Below, in pieces: positions 125-9,989 of a DNA stretch of 54,113 bases (positions within the stretch are counted from its first letter, which is position 1; every line of letters starts with the position of its first letter). The position numbers were made by a program, and so were the translations under genes. The stretch comes from Candidatus Peribacteria bacterium. GTDB lineage: Bacteria > Patescibacteriota > Gracilibacteria > UBA1369 > 2-02-FULL-48-14. The DNA is taken from contig CALRGE010000010.1 of NCBI GenBank assembly GCA_943357175.1, forward strand, positions 1 through 54,113, read 5' to 3'. The notes under the pieces were generated by a model, which was not told the DNA's origin, did not search any database, and saw only the letters and a program-made list of their open reading frames with translations.

Positions 125-153
125 TTGACAACTTTTTTTCGCCTATACATTAT
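125..153 (+). promoter_or_regulatory. Possible promoter overlapped by decamer sites
   Basis: A perfect TTGACA at 125-130 is followed after 17 bases by CATTAT at 148-153. The decamer at 140-149 covers the spacer end and first bases of the -10, and the decamer at 158-167 covers the expected transcription start, so a bound protein could block this promoter. The -10 is imperfect. Confidence 0.35.
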
Positions 154-449
154 GAGCCGCCTATACAAACTGTCAAAATTTTGTATAGTCGAATTCCGAT
201 TCCTGTTTTATATAAGCCATTTTCTCCTCCTTGACAAGAGGAACTAGGATTCTTTAATTTCGAATTATTCATGTTTTAGTCCTATGTCAATATACAAATC
301 AGTGATTTTTTTGTGTCAATTTCATCAGATAAAAAGGTATATTTCTACGCCTAGTCGCCTATACACGCAACTCTGATAAGCTTATCAAAATAATTCTGTA
401 TAGTCGAATTGGATTTTTCAGCTTATGAAAGCCATCTTTCGCCTATACA
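140..449. promoter_or_regulatory. Cluster of six TGTATAG(G/T)CG decamers upstream of dnaJ
   Basis: Six exact decamers occur between tRNA-Glu and dnaJ. Four read TGTATAGGCG on the minus strand (140-149, 158-167, 356-365, 440-449) and two read TGTATAGTCG on the plus strand (182-191, 397-406). The GGCG form always points left and the GTCG form always right. Both plus copies extend to TGTATAGTCGAATT and are followed exactly 18 bases later by AAGCC. Six more copies surround and enter the HTH gene at 3097. Likely binding sites for a dedicated regulator; the identity of the binder is inference. Confidence 0.7.
231..258 (+). promoter_or_regulatory. Possible sigma70 promoter in the dnaJ leader
   Basis: TTGACA (231-236) is followed after 16 bases by TTTAAT (253-258). 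The start site would be near 265, leaving a long leader to dnaJ at 551 that carries three of the decamers. No open reading frame of note lies in 265-550. Weak -10, so tentative. Confidence 0.3.
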
Positions 450-550
450 CTTTGTCTAAGATGAATGGCTTGTCTAGCCCTCATAATTATGTTGTTTTAG
501 AACTTGCCATTATTAAGGATTTAAGATAAAACTTCCTTACACTAATAAAT

Positions 551-1687
551 ATGGAAGACTTATATACAACATTAGGGATAAATAAAGGAGCTACAGAGAG
601 CGAAATCAAGAAGGCTTACAGGAAGAAAGCTCAAGAATTTCACCCTGACAAGAATCCGGACAACAAGGATGCTGAAAAGAAATTTAAGGCAGTCCAGGAG
701 GCTTATGAAACGATTTCTGATCCTCAAAAGAGAGCAAACTACGATAGATTTGGATCTACAGGTTCCTCACAGAGTGGTCCACAAGGAGGAGGCTTTGGCT
801 TCAATGGTGCACAAGGTGGATTCAATCCTAATGATTTTGGTGGATTTGCTGATATTTTTGAAAGCTTTTTTGGAGAAAATATGGGAGGAAGACAAGAACA
901 GCCTCAGAAAGCAGGCCCTATGCGTGGCAATGACATTCAAGTACAGGTTGATATTAAGTTTGAGGAGGCGATTTTTGGAACAGATAAATACCTTGAGATA
1001 AGTAAACCTGAAACTTGCCAGAAATGTACAGGCAAGGGGAATGAACCTGGTACTGCTATTAAGAAGTGTGGCCAATGTAATGGCCAAGGACAAGTTAGAG
1101 TCACAAGACAGACAATTTTGGGGAAAATGAGCAGTGTACATTTGTGTCCAAGCTGTCAAGGTACAGGTGAGATTCCTGAGAAATTGTGCAGTGAGTGTCG
1201 AGGTCAGATGCGAACAAAGCAAACAGAAGAAGTGACTGTTAAAATTCCTAAAGGCATTGAAGATGGCACTTCGATAAAGATCAAAGAAAAAGGCTCTGCA
1301 GGTATAAGAGGTGGAAAACACGGCGACCTATATGTTCATGTTAGAGTTTTTGCACATAAAAATTTCCTTCGAGACGGTGCGAATATTCACTCTGAAGAAA
1401 ATATTCACGTGCTTCAGGCTATTTTGGGAGCAAATGTGAAGGTTGAAACTGTTCACGGCAAGGTTGATCTGAAGATTCCGGCAGGGATTCAGAGTGGAAC
1501 TGAGCTAAGTATTAAGGGCAAGGGAGCACCAAGTATTAGATCAGATAAGATGGGAGATCATATTTTGAGAGTGAACGTTAAGATCCCAGAGAAATTAAAT
1601 AAAAAGGAAAGAGAACTATTTGAGGCATTGGCAAAAGAGAGCAAAGTTAATGTGAAAGCTGAAGGATTTTTTGATGGGATATTCTAG
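551..1687 (+). CDS. dnaJ: Chaperone protein DnaJ (Hsp40)
   Basis: Co-chaperone that delivers unfolded proteins to DnaK and stimulates its ATPase in the cytoplasm. Residues 4-67 form the J domain with the HPD motif; about 68-118 are a Gly/Phe-rich linker (GGGFGFNGAQGGFNPNDFGG); about 140-215 hold the zinc-binding repeats CQKCTGKG, CGQCNGQG, CPSCQGTG and a degenerate fourth, CSECRGQM; the rest is the substrate-binding beta domain. At 378 residues it is full length. No dnaK or grpE is adjacent. The leader of about 490 bases holds six decamer sites, so its control is probably unusual. No Shine-Dalgarno sequence precedes the ATG. Confidence 0.97.
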   Translation: MEDLYTTLGINKGATESEIKKAYRKKAQEFHPDKNPDNKDAEKKFKAVQEAYETISDPQKRANYDRFGSTGSSQSGPQGGGFGFNGAQGGFNPNDFGGFADIFESFFGENMGGRQEQPQKAGPMRGNDIQVQVDIKFEEAIFGTDKYLEISKPETCQKCTGKGNEPGTAIKKCGQCNGQGQVRVTRQTILGKMSSVHLCPSCQGTGEIPEKLCSECRGQMRTKQTEEVTVKIPKGIEDGTSIKIKEKGSAGIRGGKHGDLYVHVRVFAHKNFLRDGANIHSEENIHVLQAILGANVKVETVHGKVDLKIPAGIQSGTELSIKGKGAPSIRSDKMGDHILRVNVKIPEKLNKKERELFEALAKESKVNVKAEGFFDGIF

Positions 1688-1689
1688 GA

Positions 1690-1704
1690 CTCGCTTTTGG
1701 CGAG
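1690..1704 (+). terminator. Short hairpin after dnaJ
   Basis: CTCGCT TTT GGCGAG, a six-pair stem with a three-base loop (one G-U pair), begins two bases after the dnaJ stop. No T tract follows. It resembles the three-base-loop hairpins found after tRNA-Lys, ftsE and tRNA-Ser in this window. Confidence 0.35.
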
Positions 1705-1706
1705 CA

Positions 1707-1843
1707 TTGTGCAAAACTTCTTACAAATTTAAGCTATGTGCATAAGTATTTTTTAATCTGTTATTGTGCAAAACTTTAAACGTCGAAGATGACATTGGAC
1801 ATTGTCTAGAAATGTTGAAAAGTCTGCAAAAGTTGTGCAAAAG
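1707..1843 (+). repeat. Three copies of TTGTGCAAAA
   Basis: TTGTGCAAAA occurs at 1707-1716, 1764-1773 and 1833-1842, each followed by C or G. The stretch 1705-1886 has no plausible gene. The copies may be protein-binding sites; function unknown. Confidence 0.4.
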
Positions 1844-1886
1844 TCAAAATCGGCGACTCATAGACGACACGACTGGTGTCATTTTC

Positions 1887-1975
1887 CTTATTGTAACAAT
1901 GTTGCAATAACAACCTGATAGATTTTTAAGAACTCAAAATTTCTTCCCTGGTTAACGCAGCTTTGTTGCAATAAG
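1887..1975. repeat. 89-nt structured element, copy 1
   Basis: Starts CTTATTGTAAC and ends GTTGCAATAAG. It contains two local hairpins (10-base arms, three-base loops) separated by a linker with CAACCTGAT and AAAATTTCTTC. A second copy of the same length lies at 33282-33370 with about 75% identity; arm differences are compensatory. The first arm can pair with its local partner or with the far 3' end, so two folds are possible. Homology stops near both ends and flanking genes differ, which suggests a stand-alone RNA or a mobile hairpin repeat rather than a leader of a particular gene. Confidence 0.65.
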
Positions 1976-2046
1976 AGAATCACCCAATTCTGGTCTATAT
2001 ACAAAGAGCAGATTCATAAGAAAATGATGAGCTTGCGCGGCGCTCG

Positions 2047-2100
2047 TAACCCAAACAGCTCACCTTCGGTGAGTACCCAAACAGGCTGCACTGCGTGCAG
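2047..2100 (-). repeat. Tandem hairpin units after tRNA-Lys
   Basis: Two tandem units, each made of ACCCAAACAG plus a 6-3-6 hairpin on the plus strand: CTCACC TTC GGTGAG (2059-2073) and CTGCAC TGC GTGCAG (2086-2100). Linkers are nearly identical, while the hairpin sequences differ with pairing kept. The second starts two bases after the tRNA CCA end on the minus strand, so these may end or process the tRNA transcript. Confidence 0.5.
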
Positions 2101-2102
2101 TA

Positions 2103-2178
2103 TGGTGGGTCGGCCGGGAATCGAACCCGGGACCATCAGCTTAAAAGGCTGTTGCTCTACCAACTGAGCTACCGACCC
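2103..2178 (-). tRNA. tRNA-Lys (UUU)
   Basis: Minus strand: acceptor GGGTCGG pairs with CCGACCC, D arm GCTC/GAGC, anticodon loop CTTTTAA with anticodon TTT, T arm with GTTCGATTC, and an encoded CCA end at 2105-2103. The top base pair of the anticodon stem is an A-A mismatch. Confidence 0.96.
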
Positions 2179-2191
2179 AAAATGTGGCTGT

Positions 2192-2220
2192 ATTTTATTG
2201 GCAAGATGCAATTAAGGCAA
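2192..2220 (-). promoter_or_regulatory. Promoter of tRNA-Lys
   Basis: On the minus strand TTGCCT (2220-2215), a 17-base spacer and TAAAAT (2197-2192) precede the tRNA 5' end at 2178. A clear sigma70-type promoter that also overlaps the end of the next minus-strand gene's neighbourhood. Confidence 0.6.
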
Positions 2221-2224
2221 GACA

Positions 2225-2836
2225 TTATGCAGGAGGCGATTGTCTTGGCTCAAAAAAACTGATCATTACAACGGCAATTGCAGGTAAGGCGAACCAAATA
2301 TTATAGTTATCTATCATCAGTTTCACGAACTGTGATTCCTGGTATAAATTCGTATTTGCAACAACATTCACAGAGCCTGTAACAAAAGAAGCACCTGAAA
2401 TGTATACAAGAATTGTGCTCACAATAAGACCGGCATTAAGGAAACCGAAACTTAATGTGGCTAAGAGTCGAGTAACTAAAGAGCGTTCGAACATAATATC
2501 CACATAAAAACCGCCTTTTATGGCGATTAGAACGATTCCTAAAACGAAAACGAATATCTTAAGGAAGATTAAAGCTGTATCTGCTTCAGTGCCCTGAAGG
2601 CTTGGCATTGCTGGAAATACATATTGCTTGAAAATATTACCTAAGCCGTCTGCGGCTAGAATTGCCATGTAGCAGGCGATTATTACTTTAAGGGTCTGAT
2701 TACGCCCAATAATAAAGCTGTACGCGATTACGATCCCGAAGAATACTAATACGAAGAGGTCCCAAGAAAGTCTGATGTCCACGATTGCAAAAATAAAGAT
2801 CAAAAAAATCCTAGCAACTCGCCGACAAGTATGCAA
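2225..2836 (-). CDS. Multi-spanning membrane protein, possibly CvpA-like
   Basis: A hydrophobic protein of about 200 residues with roughly four or five membrane segments, for example around residues 25-45 (LFVLVFFGIVIAYSFIIG), 50-65, 90-108 and 128-150, plus a final segment near 180-195. The size and spacing recall the CvpA (colicin V production) family, but no decisive motif was seen. The start is uncertain: the 203-residue reading begins with TTG, and the first 20 residues contain an extra hydrophobic stretch. The gene stands alone between tRNA-Lys and the divergent decamer cluster. Function unknown. Confidence 0.6.
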   Translation of the reverse strand: MHTCRRVARIFLIFIFAIVDIRLSWDLFVLVFFGIVIAYSFIIGRNQTLKVIIACYMAILAADGLGNIFKQYVFPAMPSLQGTEADTALIFLKIFVFVLGIVLIAIKGGFYVDIMFERSLVTRLLATLSFGFLNAGLIVSTILVYISGASFVTGSVNVVANTNLYQESQFVKLMIDNYNIWFALPAIAVVMISFFEPRQSPPA

Positions 2837-2899
2837 TCTAAATAAGTGAGAAGATATATTCTGACAGCTTTTGAAAAATGTTCTGTCAACTATTCAACA

Positions 2900-3016
2900 T
2901 GTATAGGCGGTTTTATGTTTTAGTACAGAGAAGCTTGTCGATTTGTATAGTCGATTTTGAAAAAGTGTATAGGCGAATTATACAACATTTTGAGCCTTGA
3001 CGATTTTGTATAGTCG
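2900..3016 (+). promoter_or_regulatory. Four plus-strand decamers upstream of the HTH gene
   Basis: TGTATAGGCG (2900-2909), TGTATAGTCG (2944-2953), TGTATAGGCG (2966-2975) and TGTATAGTCG (3007-3016) all point toward the HTH gene. Starts are 44, 22 and 41 bases apart, close to whole multiples of two helical turns, so bound proteins would lie on one face of the DNA. The last copy is followed by 18 bases and AAGCC, with TAGAAT at 3033-3038 as a possible -10, exactly as in two copies upstream of dnaJ. Confidence 0.7.
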
Positions 3017-3060
3017 AATCGAAAATTTCGTGTAGAATAAGCCGTGAATCGAGTGTCGAT

Positions 3061-3089
3061 TTGATACAAAGATTGAATTATATTATAGT
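3061..3089 (+). promoter_or_regulatory. Sigma70 promoter for a leaderless HTH mRNA
   Basis: TTGATA (3061-3066), a 17-base spacer and TATAGT (3084-3089) end seven bases before the ATG at 3097, so the transcript would start at or next to the start codon. It lies just downstream of the decamer cluster. Confidence 0.55.
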
Positions 3090-3096
3090 ATAATTT

Positions 3097-3591
3097 ATGG
3101 ATGGAAAATCATATTTAAGTCTACAAGAAGCCTCAATGATTATGGATAAATCCATACAAACTTTGAGGAGACTTATTAAGAAAGGAGATCTGAGTGCGAG
3201 AAGGGTTAGGACCCCACAGGGATATCAATATGTAGTGAGCCCTGAATTATTAGTACATATGGGATACAGTTTACCGCAAAGACCTATGTTTTCTAATTCG
3301 CCTATACAAACCGAGATTATCCCGCAAGAGGAAGCCGTAGAAGACGTGGCACCTTATCAAGCTGAAAATCTGTATAGTCGAACCGTGTTTGAACCGCAGC
3401 AGGAAAACGATTTTTACGTTCTTGACATACAAGAGGAAAAAATATTGCCGAATACTAAAGATTACGAAGAGAAAATGTTTTTGTTTTCATTGATCGAGAA
3501 ATTGCAGTCTGAAGTAAATGAGAGGCGGAAAAGTATATTTGTAAGAGGGTTTGAGTGGCTGCGCAATCGCATTATGCTTGCGGGAAAATAG
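3097..3591 (+). CDS. HTH DNA-binding protein (MerR/excisionase-type), candidate reader of the decamer
   Basis: 164 residues. Residues 5-55 form a winged helix-turn-helix of the MerR/excisionase class (YLSLQEASMIMDKSIQTLRR, then GYQYVVSPELL). Residues 60-110 are a flexible, acidic linker; about 120-164 form a charged helix ending in a basic amphipathic tail (FVRGFEWLRNRIMLAGK) that may mediate dimerisation. No ligand domain is evident. Four decamers lie upstream and two inside its own coding sequence, which points to autoregulation. The next gene starts 32 bases after its stop, so it probably leads an operon with the aminotransferase and GDH. Family assignment is from the visible sequence; target assignment is inference. 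Confidence 0.8.
   Translation: MDGKSYLSLQEASMIMDKSIQTLRRLIKKGDLSARRVRTPQGYQYVVSPELLVHMGYSLPQRPMFSNSPIQTEIIPQEEAVEDVAPYQAENLYSRTVFEPQQENDFYVLDIQEEKILPNTKDYEEKMFLFSLIEKLQSEVNERRKSIFVRGFEWLRNRIMLAGK
3299..3380. promoter_or_regulatory. Two decamers inside the HTH coding sequence
   Basis: CGCCTATACA at 3299-3308 (decamer on the minus strand) and TGTATAGTCG at 3371-3380 (plus strand) lie in the linker region of the HTH gene, encoding parts of SPIQ and LYSR. They face each other, as the pair 158-167 / 182-191 does. They may act as intragenic operators. Confidence 0.55.
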
Positions 3592-3623: not shown

Positions 3624-5141
3624 ATGAAACTCTACGACAACAAATGGGGATTCTCGATTGAAAACAACAATCCTTTTAAGATTTTTAGATTACTTCAGGA
3701 TGTTGCAAAAGAGCATGTTGGGGCGGGAGCGATGATTGATCTATCAAGAGGTGACCCGGGCTATGGTTTTGCACCGGGAATTCGCGGTAGAGAATTTCTT
3801 TCATTTCTTTTGTTTTTAGACACGAAACTTAATAATAATGGGCGCAGGTTCGTTGAAACAAAAAAAGAGCGTGAGGGGAAGATTTTGGAAGAAATCGCTG
3901 GATTTGCCCGGTCAAATTATGTTCCGGCAGTGGCTGAGAGATATTTGGAAGATTTGAGCGAGTTTATTCAGAGGTCTGTGCAAATTTGTGGAGAGCAGGG
4001 ATTGGCGATGAGCCCTTACGATGTGCTTTATGAAATTTTCAAATATTCTACTGTGAGCGGTGGGACTTATCACGATCCACAAGGTGAGAAGTTGGTTAGG
4101 GCAATTGTGGCGTGGTGGCATAAAAAAACTATCGAGACGAATTTCAATTATGAAGATATTATTTTTACGAGCGGTGCCTCGCATGCGATTGGGACAATTT
4201 TCAAATTGCTTGGGCAGGAAGGAATGCAATATTTAAACCCTGGAGATAAAGTTTTGATTTTCTCCCCTGCCTATTCACCTTATAATGATATTTTGGATCA
4301 TCTAGGCTTGGAGGCTGTAAGTTTGGCAATGGATCCAGTAACAGGAGAAATTACGAATGCGGAAATGCTGAAAGGGTTGAAGAAAATTAAATTGGTGATT
4401 GTGATTGATCCGAATAATCCTACTGGAGTTTCTGTTTCAGAGGAGAATTTGAAGATGCTGGCTGACTTTGCAGTGGAGCAAGATGCCGTTGTTGTAACTG
4501 ATGAAGTTTATAGTTCATTCTTCCCAGAAAAAAAGACTATGATCGATTTCTGTCCTGAGAGAACTTTGCGAATTCAGGCGAGATCAAAAATCGAAAGAAG
4601 CACAGGATTACGATTTGGAGATGTTCTAATTACAAAAGAAGGAAACGAATATTTAACTAAGAAGTTTAAGGATTTATTGACTGGCGGAGTAGATTTCAAA
4701 ACTTCCTTTATTTTTGCGAAGGGTCCAAGTGGAGCCGGAGAATTACAGCACACGACTTTTGTACCAGGTCCGGTACAATATTTGGGAGCGGCTCATATTT
4801 TATTGGGTAGTGATGAAAGAAGCGAATATCGAGGTGTTGTGAAAAAGAATCATGAAATTTTTAATGGAATTTTGGGGCTGAAAAATAAGAACAACCTATA
4901 TTACGTGATGTTTGATATGGACGAAATTGAAGGCGCGAATAAGCAAGATATTCCGGCTGAAGAGAAATTGTGTGAATTAGCAAAGCGCGGCGTGATTTAT
5001 ATTCCAGCGAATTTATTTTTCTCTGCGGAGGATAGAAAAGTTAAATCTAGATTGAACTCGGTGCGTGCTTCACTCGTGAATGCGAGCCCTGAGAAAATTA
5101 AGGAAGCCGCTCAAATCACTTTAGATTATTTAACTGAATAG
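3624..5141 (+). CDS. PLP-dependent aminotransferase, class I/II (AspD-like)
   Basis: About 505 residues. Transfers an amino group using pyridoxal phosphate, most likely with aspartate or alanine and 2-oxoglutarate. Visible motifs are TSGASHAIG for the phosphate site, DPNNPTG, TDEVYSSF with the PLP-ring Asp/Tyr, and SKIERSTGLRFGD with the Schiff-base lysine and the Arg-containing turn. The long N-terminal region with RGREFLSFLLFL is like the aspartate aminotransferase / aspartate 4-decarboxylase (AspD) group, longer than usual 390-residue enzymes. I chose the ATG at 3624; an earlier non-ATG start would overlap the HTH gene. gdhA follows three bases after the stop, so the two probably share glutamate as product and substrate. 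Confidence 0.88.
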   Translation: MKLYDNKWGFSIENNNPFKIFRLLQDVAKEHVGAGAMIDLSRGDPGYGFAPGIRGREFLSFLLFLDTKLNNNGRRFVETKKEREGKILEEIAGFARSNYVPAVAERYLEDLSEFIQRSVQICGEQGLAMSPYDVLYEIFKYSTVSGGTYHDPQGEKLVRAIVAWWHKKTIETNFNYEDIIFTSGASHAIGTIFKLLGQEGMQYLNPGDKVLIFSPAYSPYNDILDHLGLEAVSLAMDPVTGEITNAEMLKGLKKIKLVIVIDPNNPTGVSVSEENLKMLADFAVEQDAVVVTDEVYSSFFPEKKTMIDFCPERTLRIQARSKIERSTGLRFGDVLITKEGNEYLTKKFKDLLTGGVDFKTSFIFAKGPSGAGELQHTTFVPGPVQYLGAAHILLGSDERSEYRGVVKKNHEIFNGILGLKNKNNLYYVMFDMDEIEGANKQDIPAEEKLCELAKRGVIYIPANLFFSAEDRKVKSRLNSVRASLVNASPEKIKEAAQITLDYLTE

Positions 5142-5144
5142 TTT

Positions 5145-6395
5145 ATGTCACTTTTTGAAAACACGCTTACGCAGATTCAGAAGGCAGCAAAGTTGATGAA
5201 GTTGGACCCAAATGTAGAAACTGTTTTAAGTAATCCGGACAGGATTTTGGAGGTTAGCGTACCGGTCAAAATGGACAATGGTGCCATTAGAATTTTCAGG
5301 GGATTTCGTGTCCAGCATAATAACGTTAGAGGGCCTTATAAAGGAGGAATTCGTTATCACCCGCAAGTGGACATGGATGAAGTTAAGGCGCTCGCGACTT
5401 GGATGACTATCAAATGTGCAGTTGTGAATATTCCACTTGGTGGAGGAAAGGGTGGAGTGATTGTTGATCCGAAAGAGCTTTCTTTACGAGAATTAGAGAG
5501 GATGACAAGACGATACACAATGGCGATTTCAAATTTTATAGGTCCGGATATTGATGTTCCTGCTCCTGACGTTTACACAAATCCACAGATTATGGCATGG
5601 ATTGTTGATGAATATTCGAAAATTCACGGGAAAAATATTCCAGGAGTTGTGACAGGAAAATCGATTGCGATTGGTGGTTCACAGGGGCGAGAAGATGCAA
5701 CAAGTCAGGGTGGTGTTTATGTTTTAGAAGAGGTGTTGAAGCAGTATGGCAAGAAAGATGTGAAAGATACGCGCGTAATTATTCAGGGTTTTGGGAATGC
5801 TGGATCTCATGTTGCGCGAATGTTACATGCGAAGGGCTTCAAAATTATTGGCGTTTCAGATTCGAAGGGCGCGCTTTATTGTAAAGATGGACTGAATCCG
5901 GCGGATGCGATGACCTGCAAAATTGAGGGTGGAAGCGTGGGTGAATGTTATGGAAGTGGTGAGGCATGTGAAATGATGACGAACGAGCAAATTTTGGTGG
6001 CGGATTGTGATATTTTGATTCTGTCGGCGCTTGAGAATCAGATTACTGCGGCGAATGCGGCGCAAGTGAAGGCGGGGATTATTTTGGAACTCGCTAACGG
6101 ACCTGTTAATCCTGAAGCAGACGAGATTTTGGAGGGAATGGGAGTTAAAGTTATACCTGATATTTTGGCGAATGCGGGTGGAGTAACTGTGAGTTATTTT
6201 GAACTTGTGCAAAATAATATGAACTATTATTGGACTGCGGAAGAGGTTCAGACAAAATTGAAAACAATTATGGTTGCCGCTTGGCAATCTGTACATGACA
6301 ATTCTTTGAAATTCGATACCAGTTTCAGGGCGGCCGCGTACATTAGCGCGATGCGTCGATTGGAGGAAGCGATAAAGATGAGGGGTGGGTATTGA
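5145..6395 (+). CDS. gdhA: Glutamate dehydrogenase
   Basis: Interconverts glutamate and 2-oxoglutarate plus ammonia with NAD(P). The 416-residue length fits the hexameric family. Seen are the substrate-binding GGIRYHP and PLGGGKGG (catalytic lysine region), PAPDVYT, VTGKSIAIGGSQGREDATSQGG region and a Rossmann motif GFGNAGSHVA. The ATG lies three bases after the aminotransferase stop with no Shine-Dalgarno sequence, so translation is likely coupled. The pair can move nitrogen between aspartate, glutamate and ammonia. Cofactor choice (NAD or NADP) cannot be read safely from the sequence. Confidence 0.97.
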   Translation: MSLFENTLTQIQKAAKLMKLDPNVETVLSNPDRILEVSVPVKMDNGAIRIFRGFRVQHNNVRGPYKGGIRYHPQVDMDEVKALATWMTIKCAVVNIPLGGGKGGVIVDPKELSLRELERMTRRYTMAISNFIGPDIDVPAPDVYTNPQIMAWIVDEYSKIHGKNIPGVVTGKSIAIGGSQGREDATSQGGVYVLEEVLKQYGKKDVKDTRVIIQGFGNAGSHVARMLHAKGFKIIGVSDSKGALYCKDGLNPADAMTCKIEGGSVGECYGSGEACEMMTNEQILVADCDILILSALENQITAANAAQVKAGIILELANGPVNPEADEILEGMGVKVIPDILANAGGVTVSYFELVQNNMNYYWTAEEVQTKLKTIMVAAWQSVHDNSLKFDTSFRAAAYISAMRRLEEAIKMRGGY

Positions 6396-7311: not shown

Positions 7312-7400
7312 CTATACACCAGCAATTTCCCTTCAAAAAGTCGTGGGGTTTTCGTGGAAAAGCGTTGCCAGAAATTGCGATTTGCTGTAAAAAACATCCA

Positions 7401-9989
7401 ATGAAATACATCTACTCGTTCTCAGAAGGAAATCAGAAGATGAAAGATTTGCTTGGTGGCAAGGGTGCCAACTTAGCTGAAATGACGAATTTGGGCTTGC
7501 CGGTTCCCCCGGGATTCACAATTACAACAGAAGTTTGTAATTATTTTTTGGAGAAAAATGAATATCCTGCGGGTTTTGAACACGATTTAAATGAGAAATT
7601 GGACGAGCTAGAGCATGCTATTAAAAAAACTTTCGGATCGAAGACTAATCCACTTTTGGTTTCGGTTAGATCAGGTTCTAAGTTTTCGATGCCTGGAATG
7701 ATGGATACGATTTTGAACCTTGGTTTGAATGATGACACCGTTGCGGCGATGATAGAAAAAACCGGGAATGACAGGTTCTGTTACGATTCATACCGACGAT
7801 TTGTGACAATGTTTGCGAACGTGGTTATGGGTGTTGGACATGATCATTTTGAAGAGGCACTCGATGCCGCGAAGAAAGATAAAGGTGTTGAGTTGGACAC
7901 AGAAATGGGAGCAGAAGATTGGAAGAAATTGGTTGGAATTTATAAGGAGATTGTGAAGACACATGCGGGTAGAGAGTTCCCGGAAGAACCACGAGAACAA
8001 TTGCGAATGGCGATTGAAGCTGTTTTCAGTTCATGGAATAACAAGCGAGCGGTTACCTACAGAAATATGCATGGTTACGCGCATAATTTGGGAACTGCGG
8101 TGAATGTGCAGTCGATGGTTTTCGGGAACATGGGTGAACAGTCTGGAACAGGTGTGGCTTTCACTAGAAATCCTTCAACCGGAGAGCATTATTTCTTTGG
8201 AGAATTTTTGTTGAATGCACAGGGTGAAGATGTGGTGGCTGGAATTAGAACTCCAGAGAAAATTGATATGCTAAAGGAAAAAATTCCTGCAGCTTATGAG
8301 AAACTTTTTGAAATTCAGTTGAAGCTTGAGTCGCATTATCGCGATATGCAGGACATCGAATTTACTATCGAAGAGGGAAAACTTTACATGCTTCAGACTC
8401 GAAATGGTAAAAGAGCTGCTGCAGCGGCGATTAAGGTTGCGATAGATATGGTTTCGGAAGGTTTGATTACAAAGCACGAGGCCTTAAAGAGGATAGATCC
8501 AAATCAACTACAACAGCTTTTACATCCGTCGATAGATTCTAAAGCGAAACTTGAGATTTTGGCGAAGGGTTTGCCGGCTTCTCCTGGAGCTGCGGCTGGT
8601 AAAATTGTGTTCAATGCAGATACTGCATACGACATGGCAGAGACCGGAGAAAAAGTGATTTTAGTTCGAAAAGAAACGTCTCCGGAAGACATTCATGGAA
8701 TGCACGCGGCACAGGGAATTTTAACTTCAACAGGAGGAATGACAAGTCACGCGGCGGTTGTTGCACGTGGAATGGGAAAGTGCTGTATTGCTGGCTGTAA
8801 AGATGCACAAGTTGATGAAGCGAGTAAAACCTTGAGGATTGGTGGAGAAGTTTTTGGTGAAGGCGATGTAATTACTTTAAATGGAAGCACAGGTGAGGTG
8901 ATTCGAGGCTTGGCTCCGATGCGAGAACCTGAATTGACTGAAGATTTTGAGACATTGATGGCATGGGCTGATGAGGTTCGTGAGATGAAAATTAGAACGA
9001 ATGCCGATACTCCTTTTGACGCGGAAGTTGGACGAAAATTTGGGGCGGAGGGAATTGGATTGTGTCGAACGGAGCACATGTTTTTTGACACAGACAGGAT
9101 CAATTTGGTGAGACAAATGATTCTTTCTAAAGATGCTGCAGACCGAGCGGCACCGTTGAAAATGTTGCAAGCAATGCAACGAGAAGACTTCAAAGGTATC
9201 TTCAGAGTTATGAATGATTTGCCTGTGACAATTCGATTGTTAGATCCGCCTTTGCACGAATTCCTACCTGATACAGATGCGAAAATTAAAGCGCTGGCGC
9301 AAGATATGGGAGTTGAGTTTGAAGCGCTTCGAAAAGTTGCGAGTTCACTTCATGAAATTAACCCAATGCTTGGTCACAGAGGTTGCAGGCTTGGAATAAC
9401 TTCTCCTGAAATTTACGAAATGCAGGTGCGAGCGATTTTTGAAGCTGGAAAAGCTGTCGTATTAGATGGAGTGAAGCCGCTGATTGAAATTGAAGTTCCA
9501 CTTGTTGGAGATGTTACAGAGTTGAAGAGAATTCGAACTATGATCTTCGAAGTTGCGGCAGAAATGGAGCCGCTGAATTTCAGCTGGAAAGTTGGAACAA
9601 TGATTGAGCTTCCACGCGCTTGTGTGACTGCTGATCAAATCGCAAAAGAGGCCGATTTCTTCAGTTTTGGGACCAATGATCTCACTCAGATGACATTTGG
9701 TATGAGTCGTGATGATGCAGGCTCATTCCTCCCCTTCTACACTGAACAAGGGCTTTATAAAAATGACCCTACGGAGACTATCGATCAAGAAGGTGTTGGA
9801 CAGTTGATGAGGATTGCCGTGAAGTTGGGGCGAAGCACAAAGCACGATTTGGAGATTGGAATCTGTGGAGAGCACGGCGGAGAACCAAAATCAGTTATGT
9901 TCTGCCAGGAAATTGGCTTGAATTATGTAAGTTGTTCACCTTACCGAGTGCCGGTTGCCAGATTGGCGGCGGCGCAGGCGTGTATTTAA
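7401..9989 (+). CDS. ppdK: Pyruvate, phosphate dikinase
   Basis: Interconverts pyruvate, ATP and phosphate with PEP, AMP and pyrophosphate, allowing reversible PPi-linked glycolysis. 862 residues from ATG 7401. Order: N-terminal ATP-grasp part beginning GNQKMKDLLGGKGANLAEM; nucleotide-binding part ending YMLQTRNGKR; the swivelling domain with catalytic histidine in GGMTSHAAVVARG; the C-terminal PEP/pyruvate barrel with LCRTEHMFF, GTMIELPRA, FGTNDLTQM and GICGEHGG. An upstream non-ATG start is possible but would add 12 residues not typical of the family. It is a single gene with a long leader and no Shine-Dalgarno sequence. All key motifs are intact. Confidence 0.97.
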   Translation: MKYIYSFSEGNQKMKDLLGGKGANLAEMTNLGLPVPPGFTITTEVCNYFLEKNEYPAGFEHDLNEKLDELEHAIKKTFGSKTNPLLVSVRSGSKFSMPGMMDTILNLGLNDDTVAAMIEKTGNDRFCYDSYRRFVTMFANVVMGVGHDHFEEALDAAKKDKGVELDTEMGAEDWKKLVGIYKEIVKTHAGREFPEEPREQLRMAIEAVFSSWNNKRAVTYRNMHGYAHNLGTAVNVQSMVFGNMGEQSGTGVAFTRNPSTGEHYFFGEFLLNAQGEDVVAGIRTPEKIDMLKEKIPAAYEKLFEIQLKLESHYRDMQDIEFTIEEGKLYMLQTRNGKRAAAAAIKVAIDMVSEGLITKHEALKRIDPNQLQQLLHPSIDSKAKLEILAKGLPASPGAAAGKIVFNADTAYDMAETGEKVILVRKETSPEDIHGMHAAQGILTSTGGMTSHAAVVARGMGKCCIAGCKDAQVDEASKTLRIGGEVFGEGDVITLNGSTGEVIRGLAPMREPELTEDFETLMAWADEVREMKIRTNADTPFDAEVGRKFGAEGIGLCRTEHMFFDTDRINLVRQMILSKDAADRAAPLKMLQAMQREDFKGIFRVMNDLPVTIRLLDPPLHEFLPDTDAKIKALAQDMGVEFEALRKVASSLHEINPMLGHRGCRLGITSPEIYEMQVRAIFEAGKAVVLDGVKPLIEIEVPLVGDVTELKRIRTMIFEVAAEMEPLNFSWKVGTMIELPRACVTADQIAKEADFFSFGTNDLTQMTFGMSRDDAGSFLPFYTEQGLYKNDPTETIDQEGVGQLMRIAVKLGRSTKHDLEIGICGEHGGEPKSVMFCQEIGLNYVSCSPYRVPVARLAAAQACI

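Follow-up and report, generated by a model that had tools for sequence, protein, structure and literature searches.

Introduction

Peregrinibacteria are an uncultured, small-genome lineage. Little seems to have been written about transcription regulation in these bacteria, and a narrow literature search found no paper on it. The stretch analysed here, called the window, comprises the 54,113 nucleotides of contig CALRGE010000010.1 from a Candidatus Peribacteria bacterium (assembly GCA_943357175.1). Near its start, exact copies of a decamer, TGTATAGKCG, are clustered around dnaJ and around a gene encoding a helix-turn-helix (HTH) protein. These sites are probably operators of the HTH protein, which would repress its own gene cooperatively and would also control dnaJ. 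If so, a regulator can be studied at this locus together with its operators and a time series of their evolution.

The dnaJ–HTH Locus

The gene order tRNA-Glu, dnaJ, a protein of about 200 amino acids, tRNA-Lys, the HTH gene, glutamate dehydrogenase (GDH), and pyruvate phosphate dikinase (PPDK) is widespread in the order, apart from occasional inversions and insertions. In the window, dnaJ lies at 551–1687 on the forward strand (TIGR02349, 420 bits; PF01556, PF00226). It is followed by two features on the reverse strand: tRNA-Lys (TTT) at 2103–2178, whose position is kept in relatives, and a conserved, membrane-protein-like gene of 203 codons at 2225–2836, whose product shares 59–63% identity with those of family relatives, adjoins dnaJ across the order, and has no Pfam or NCBIfam match. 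The HTH gene (164 amino acids, presumed binder of the sites) occupies 3097–3591 on the forward strand. Behind it, on the same strand, are an aminotransferase gene at 3624–5141 (aspartate aminotransferase/4-decarboxylase-like; PF00155, and TIGR03801 at 74.5 bits, below cut-off), found at this place in the window and in genome G003, then GDH at 5145–6395 (PF00208, PF02812) and, at the end of the conserved neighbourhood, PPDK at 7395–9989 (TIGR01828, 1381 bits).

The dnaJ-side cluster contains exact copies at 140–149, 158–167, 356–365, and 440–449 (reverse strand, ending in GGCG when read on their own strand) and at 182–191 and 397–406 (forward strand, ending in GTCG); they fill slots 1, 2, 6, 8, 3, and 7, respectively, and the copy at 440 is the promoter-proximal one. 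A possible degenerate site, CGCCTAGTCG (348–357, forward strand), overlaps the copy at 356; it fits only the general pattern YGNNTANNCR described below and is weak alone, 0.8 such sites being expected by chance. Between the divergent 203-codon gene and the HTH gene lie four forward-strand copies: GGCG at 2900–2909 and 2966–2975, and GTCG at 2944–2953 and 3007–3016. Two more stand inside the HTH gene, in the region coding for the linker of its product: a GGCG copy at 3299–3308 (reverse strand, within the codons for SPIQ) and a GTCG copy at 3371–3380 (forward strand, within those for LYSR).

All twelve copies of the original prediction are thus present, while shuffled sequences have a mean of 0.04 and at most one. 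With one mismatch allowed, the window has 17 matches, five of them beyond the exact copies, and 2.3 would be expected in all. Genome-wide statements in this analysis come from pattern searches, and the genomes are drafts. The genome of the window itself (1,229,420 bp in 20 contigs) has 14 exact matches. One, C4:110960, is the same site as the copy at 140, seen again through an overlap between contig C4 and the start of the window (C10), which both bear the same tRNA-Glu and the bases after it. Twelve of the 13 unique copies therefore fall within 3.24 kb, and the remaining one, C1:16865, sits in an apparent coding sequence; the copies are not scattered through the genome. One-mismatch variants number 65 genome-wide, fewer than the 121 matches of a reversed control pattern, which indicates that the decamer is strict. 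The predicted order of orientations also holds, since the GTCG copies are on the forward strand in five of five cases and the GGCG copies upstream of dnaJ on the reverse strand in four of four.

Two Site Classes with a Common Grammar

What had been described as a single decamer comprises two classes of sites, GGCG and GTCG, and not one motif. The evidence comes from relatives. The clusters are also found in G001, G003, and G004 and are thinner in G002, G005, and family f9; in the same regions, TGTATAGKCG occurs 8 times in G003, 7 in G004, 5 in G001, and once each in G002 and G005. Mixed with these copies in the family relatives is a palindromic motif, TTGACTAGTCAA, which is nearly confined to the locus. 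Written as TTGACTAGTC[AG][AG], the palindrome is the second motif in these regions of G001–G005. Nearly all TTGACTAGTC matches are at the locus (7 of 7 in G003, 5 of 5 in G002, 10 of 11 in G004, and 9 of 10 in G001), but at the window's own locus none was found, and its genome has two matches elsewhere.

When the regions are aligned, the copies recur at matching positions in the family relatives, so that the expected conservation upstream of orthologs was indeed observed. The positions of the slots are conserved beyond random placement: 23 sites are paired within the family at dnaJ (random mean 12.6, maximum 20 of 300) and 56 at the HTH gene (random mean 36.9, maximum 48). The occupants of the slots, in turn, are exchanged. 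Three GTCG copies of the window align to the palindrome of relatives: that at 397 (dnaJ -154), which matches CCGACTAGTCAA in G003 and TTGACTAGTCGG in G004; that at 3007 (HTH -90), whose slot has TTGACTAGTCRR in G003, G004, and G002; and that at 3371 (HTH +274), aligned with TTGACTAGTCAA/CCGACTAGTCAA in G003 and G004. At other slots, GGCG and GTCG replace each other between genomes. On the dnaJ side, the slot at 140 has TGTATAGTCG in both G003 and G004; that at 158 has TTGACTAGTCGG in G004 and TGTATAGGCG in G003; that at 182 has TGTATAGGCG in G004 with the identical 18/24-bp spacing; and the sites at 356 and 440 are kept in G003 and G004, the former as GTCG and GGCG, respectively, the latter with GGCA in G004. 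The intragenic site at 3299 is identical in both genomes. Since site types swap at conserved slots, the decamer is best described as two classes of one grammar.

The site types, among them TTGTATAGGCGA, TTGTATAGTCGA, TTGACTAGTCAA, and TTGATTAATCAA, share the grammar YGNNT|ANNCR, in which two half-sites in inverted orientation meet at a TA step. In the half-site NYGNNT, Y is found in 210 of 212 cases, G in 205, and T in 208, and YpG is the most constant part, although this table is descriptive only because the sites were chosen by patterns. In the regions of ten genomes there are 41 further YGNNTANNCR sites outside the named classes, where 8.9 would be expected judging by the remainder of each locus; three of the 41 overlap the start of f9 HTH genes (ATGGTTAATCAA) and may be coding. 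The rule of orientation is partly explained by this history, because the GTCG copies include rewritten palindromic sites. The GGCG copies may represent the older, asymmetric class, if we infer the order of events correctly from the alignments.

Association of the Site with the HTH Gene throughout the Order

Those relatives of the HTH protein that bear names come nearly all from Candidatus Peregrinibacteria, Peribacteria, or Gracilibacteria. A scan of contigs with an alignment of the protein gave 59 loci (a single-protein query gave none). At 54 loci outside the three array-bearing families, all 1,024 10-bp palindromes were counted between -300 and +30 of the HTH gene. The top three were TGATTAATCA (23 against 1.2 expected), TGAGTACTCA (15 against 0.8), and TGACTAGTCA (17 against 1.2), mostly located between -10 and -85. 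The same scan found each of them only 0 or 1 times before dnaJ, GDH, and PPDK. A specific site thus stands before the gene itself across orthologs and none is enriched before the neighbours, which is the pattern taken as the mark of autoregulation. No other evidence speaks as strongly for an operator of its own at the HTH gene and for a later addition of dnaJ; the control of dnaJ would then have been grafted, in this clade only, onto an autoregulatory circuit that is older. In the dnaJ tree, one branch (support 96/93) sets the three families with arrays apart from the remaining 20 rows, and a single origin of the array is therefore possible.

The resulting series would run from one or a few palindromes upstream of the HTH gene, as in most of the order, to mixed arrays that include dnaJ in one clade; as a final step, in the window's genome, the palindromic class would have been rewritten to TGTATAGTCG at several slots simultaneously with the positions kept. 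Such a change of operators under a recognition helix that hardly varies is directly testable in vitro.

Exact-repeat arrays were not found by de novo 8-mer counts in distant families, a method which degenerate sites escape. A wider TTGANTANTCAA regulon was considered and rejected: the 16 sites in G045 are all inside predicted open reading frames, as are two further matches in the window's genome; a match in G021 is intergenic and lies before the HTH gene. Separately, in the dnaJ and HTH regions of locus L080 (G041) the 8-mers GTCAGTAG/AGTAGTCA occur about ten times, possibly as a tandem repeat, and in L155, a distant relative, TTTTTGAT/CACTATCA is repeated before dnaJ or the HTH gene and possibly belongs to another operator family.

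The HTH Protein and Known Systems

The HTH protein is predicted to be a winged HTH protein of the MerR/BldC/Xis type with a linker and a long C-terminal helix. In the model, the winged HTH spans residues 2–58, a disordered linker about 60–118, and the C-terminal helix 120–163. The AlphaFold2 pLDDT exceeds 90 at residues 11–60 with a 15-row alignment; a model made without alignment had a mean of 40 and was discarded. The nearest folds of the DNA-binding domain are BldC (Z 8.5; 1.9 Å over 54 residues), Xis (7.3), RdfS (6.8), and RacA (5.4), with BmrR and Cox also among the matches, Z values below 8 being weak by the tool's own note and the list mostly a single superfamily. At the sequence level, HTH_17 (PF12728) matches the window protein with E 0.001, below the cut-off, and an f9 ortholog with 9.5e-7, above it. 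The only PDB sequence match is P2 Cox (E 0.0029), and 13 of 15 orthologs match an NCBIfam excisionase domain, with E up to 0.1. Orthologs outside the window's family have a coiled-coil-like stretch followed by a conserved, tryptophan-rich C-terminal tail, KKxW..W.

BldC, the best fold match, works by cooperative binding to several repeated sites (PMC5859096). However, it is 68 residues long, lacks a coiled coil, and recognises head-to-tail direct repeats, AATTXXXX(C), across a regulon (PMC5859096); the HTH protein has 164 residues with a long linker and a C-terminal helix, and the sites here consist of inverted half-sites at one locus. Contact of an arginine with YpG is documented for RacA and BldC (PMC5859096); this fits the constant YpG of the present sites and is not a test. 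Phage excisionase and Cox proteins oligomerise on DNA and are also transcription regulators (PMC11963761). P2 Cox, RdfS, and Xis resemble the HTH protein, as its sequence and excisionase-domain matches indicate, but here the gene belongs to a vertically conserved chromosomal neighbourhood and the sites are strict and inverted; among the neighbouring genes examined, none was recognised as a partner integrase. With the classical MerR proteins it shares the N-terminal winged HTH, a helix suited to dimerisation, and palindromic sites. MerR operators lie between -35 and -10 in promoters with spacers of 19–20 bp (PMC5859096), unlike the 17-bp spacer, the proximal site over the -10, and the many sites seen here, and the HTH model has no effector-binding C-terminal domain but a disordered linker and one long helix.

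HspR is a MerR-type regulator encoded beside a chaperone gene, and the original prediction had compared the locus to it. This analogy found no support. The HAIR box, CTTGAGT-N7-ACTCAAG, has three matches at three mismatches (2.6 expected), none of them near dnaJ. With virtually no exact decamer sites in the rest of the genome, this is not a chaperone regulon, and none extends beyond dnaJ. HrcA, moreover, is encoded elsewhere in the genome, and its CIRCE operator, TTAGCACTC-N9-GAGTGCTAA, has no match at three mismatches in the window. Of the two TTGACTAGTC matches outside the locus in the window's genome (G000), one, at G000:C1:81125, lies about 550 bp from the hrcA match (C1:81676–82083); it is probably there by chance, because G001 and G004 lack such a site near hrcA.

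Promoter Layout and Proposed Mechanism

The HTH promoter of five relatives has the form TTTAC(A/T)-N17-TATACA; its -10 is overlapped by the proximal site, and the next site lies 43 bp further upstream. Sites placed over a -10 suggest repression. A pair of sites 43–44 bp apart is also found before dnaJ in G000, G003, and G004; in the window it is formed by the copies at 397 and 440. The copy at 3007 corresponds to the distal site of the HTH module, and a promoter-like sequence, TTGATA-N17-TATAGT (3061–3089, forward strand), tentatively assigned, directly precedes the start codon. Promoter-like matches in the window are not above chance in number. A leftward TTGACA-N16-CATAAT at 176–149 is near consensus (11 of 12) and directed at tRNA-Glu, with one site in its spacer (158) and another abutting its -10; by eye it was not recognised in G003 or G004.

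The proposed mechanism is as follows. Each pseudo-palindrome of 10–12 bp, YGNNT|ANNCR, would be read by a dimer, which the C-terminal helix probably holds together, each of its two winged-HTH domains contacting one YpG half-site; the TTGTATAGGCGA, TTGTATAGTCGA, and TTGACTAGTCAA forms are candidate targets. Several dimers may bind neighbouring, largely helically phased sites cooperatively, so as to occupy the region upstream of dnaJ, the HTH promoter, and the interior of the HTH gene; the resulting repressor complex would span many sites, and the DNA between the two clusters, which are 2.5 kb apart, may be looped. The HTH protein would thereby keep down the expression of its own gene and of the aminotransferase and GDH genes behind it, and would co-regulate dnaJ. 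Autoregulation through one or few sites would be the ancestral, order-wide state, and the array and the capture of dnaJ would have arisen in the clade that includes the window. The part of the original prediction that assigned to the HTH protein operators at its own promoter and at dnaJ is supported by the confinement of the sites, their matching positions in relatives, and the apparently ancestral site before the HTH gene. Control of the aminotransferase and GDH, which it also claimed, is plausible but only indirectly so: both genes lie behind the HTH gene on the same strand, separated by short distances, and there are no sites before either.

Several observations weigh against this interpretation. 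The recognition helix is nearly invariant while the sites diverge, and for this reason protein–site co-evolution is not visible. The asymmetric TGTATAGGCG could have a different reader. At about one-third of the 54 outside loci, no site precedes the HTH gene even when two mismatches are allowed, G002 and G005 lack clear named sites before dnaJ, and the genome of the window has lost the HTH site nearest the promoter. The intragenic GGCG sites are all in one reading frame (SPIQ, PPIQ, or APIQ), so that their conservation may be partly at the protein level; the TTGACTAGTCAA sites have only one stop-free frame, which makes their frame uninformative. Finally, the spacings of neighbouring sites cluster near multiples of 10–10.5 bp (R 0.36–0.38, 70 spacings), a value computed from orthologous spacings that are not independent.

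Alternative Explanations

The near-constancy of the recognition helix, together with the strict and asymmetric GGCG sites, could also mean that the sites belong to another DNA-binding protein, such as a stress or metabolic regulator encoded elsewhere, with the HTH gene as one of its targets. This is improbable, considering that the sites appear at no other locus of the genome, as is typical of a local autoregulator, and that across the order the site follows the HTH gene and not dnaJ. Reading the decamer as CGCCTATACA, a -10 element for an alternative sigma factor and no operator at all, would account for the TATACA placed 17 bp downstream of TTTAC(A/T) in the five relatives; it is, however, very unlikely in view of copies in both orientations, in tandem, and inside the HTH coding region, of their exchange for TTGACTAGTCAA at the same slots, and of the chance-level number of promoter-like matches in the window. 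Short, identical, clustered copies might suggest a passive repeat family, mobile or produced by replication slippage, with no regulatory role. This is hardly credible for strict sequences that keep their slots while exchanging types, are confined to one locus in several divergent genera, and are associated with the HTH gene throughout the order.

A further explanation is that the array is centromere-like: the HTH protein would tether the locus to the membrane or the cell pole in the manner of RacA, and regulation would be secondary. A multi-site array at a single locus, the layout of winged HTH, linker, and coiled coil with the KKxW..W tail in orthologs, and the RacA domain among the fold matches agree with this, as does the lack of a ParB-domain (ParB_N) match in 10 of 13 Peregrinibacteria genomes, the window's included (DnaA was found in 13 of 13). 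Nevertheless, anchoring is unlikely as the primary role. The array-bearing G004 and G002 do have a ParB-domain match; arrays occur in one clade only, while the HTH gene is order-wide and elsewhere has one to few sites of promoter-operator type. RacA anchors chromosomes through sites spread around the replication origin, whereas those of the HTH locus are at promoters of a single locus. In most relatives there is no sharp GC-skew switch at the locus, and in one closed relative dnaA is far from the HTH gene (855 kb versus 294 kb of 998 kb), a distance that compares genes, the origin itself not being located. A combined version, in which the array makes up the DNA part of a nucleoprotein complex tethered to the membrane and autoregulation, dnaJ control, and chromosome positioning form one device, is likewise distinctly unlikely; the locus would be held through the coiled coil and tryptophan-rich tail in a lineage largely without ParB.

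As a separate observation on skew, in G053:C1, a single contig, GC skew was negative in all 20 sampled 20-kb stretches, at about -0.2 to -0.45 (920–998 kb unsampled), a pattern that would fit a single leading strand along most of the chromosome.

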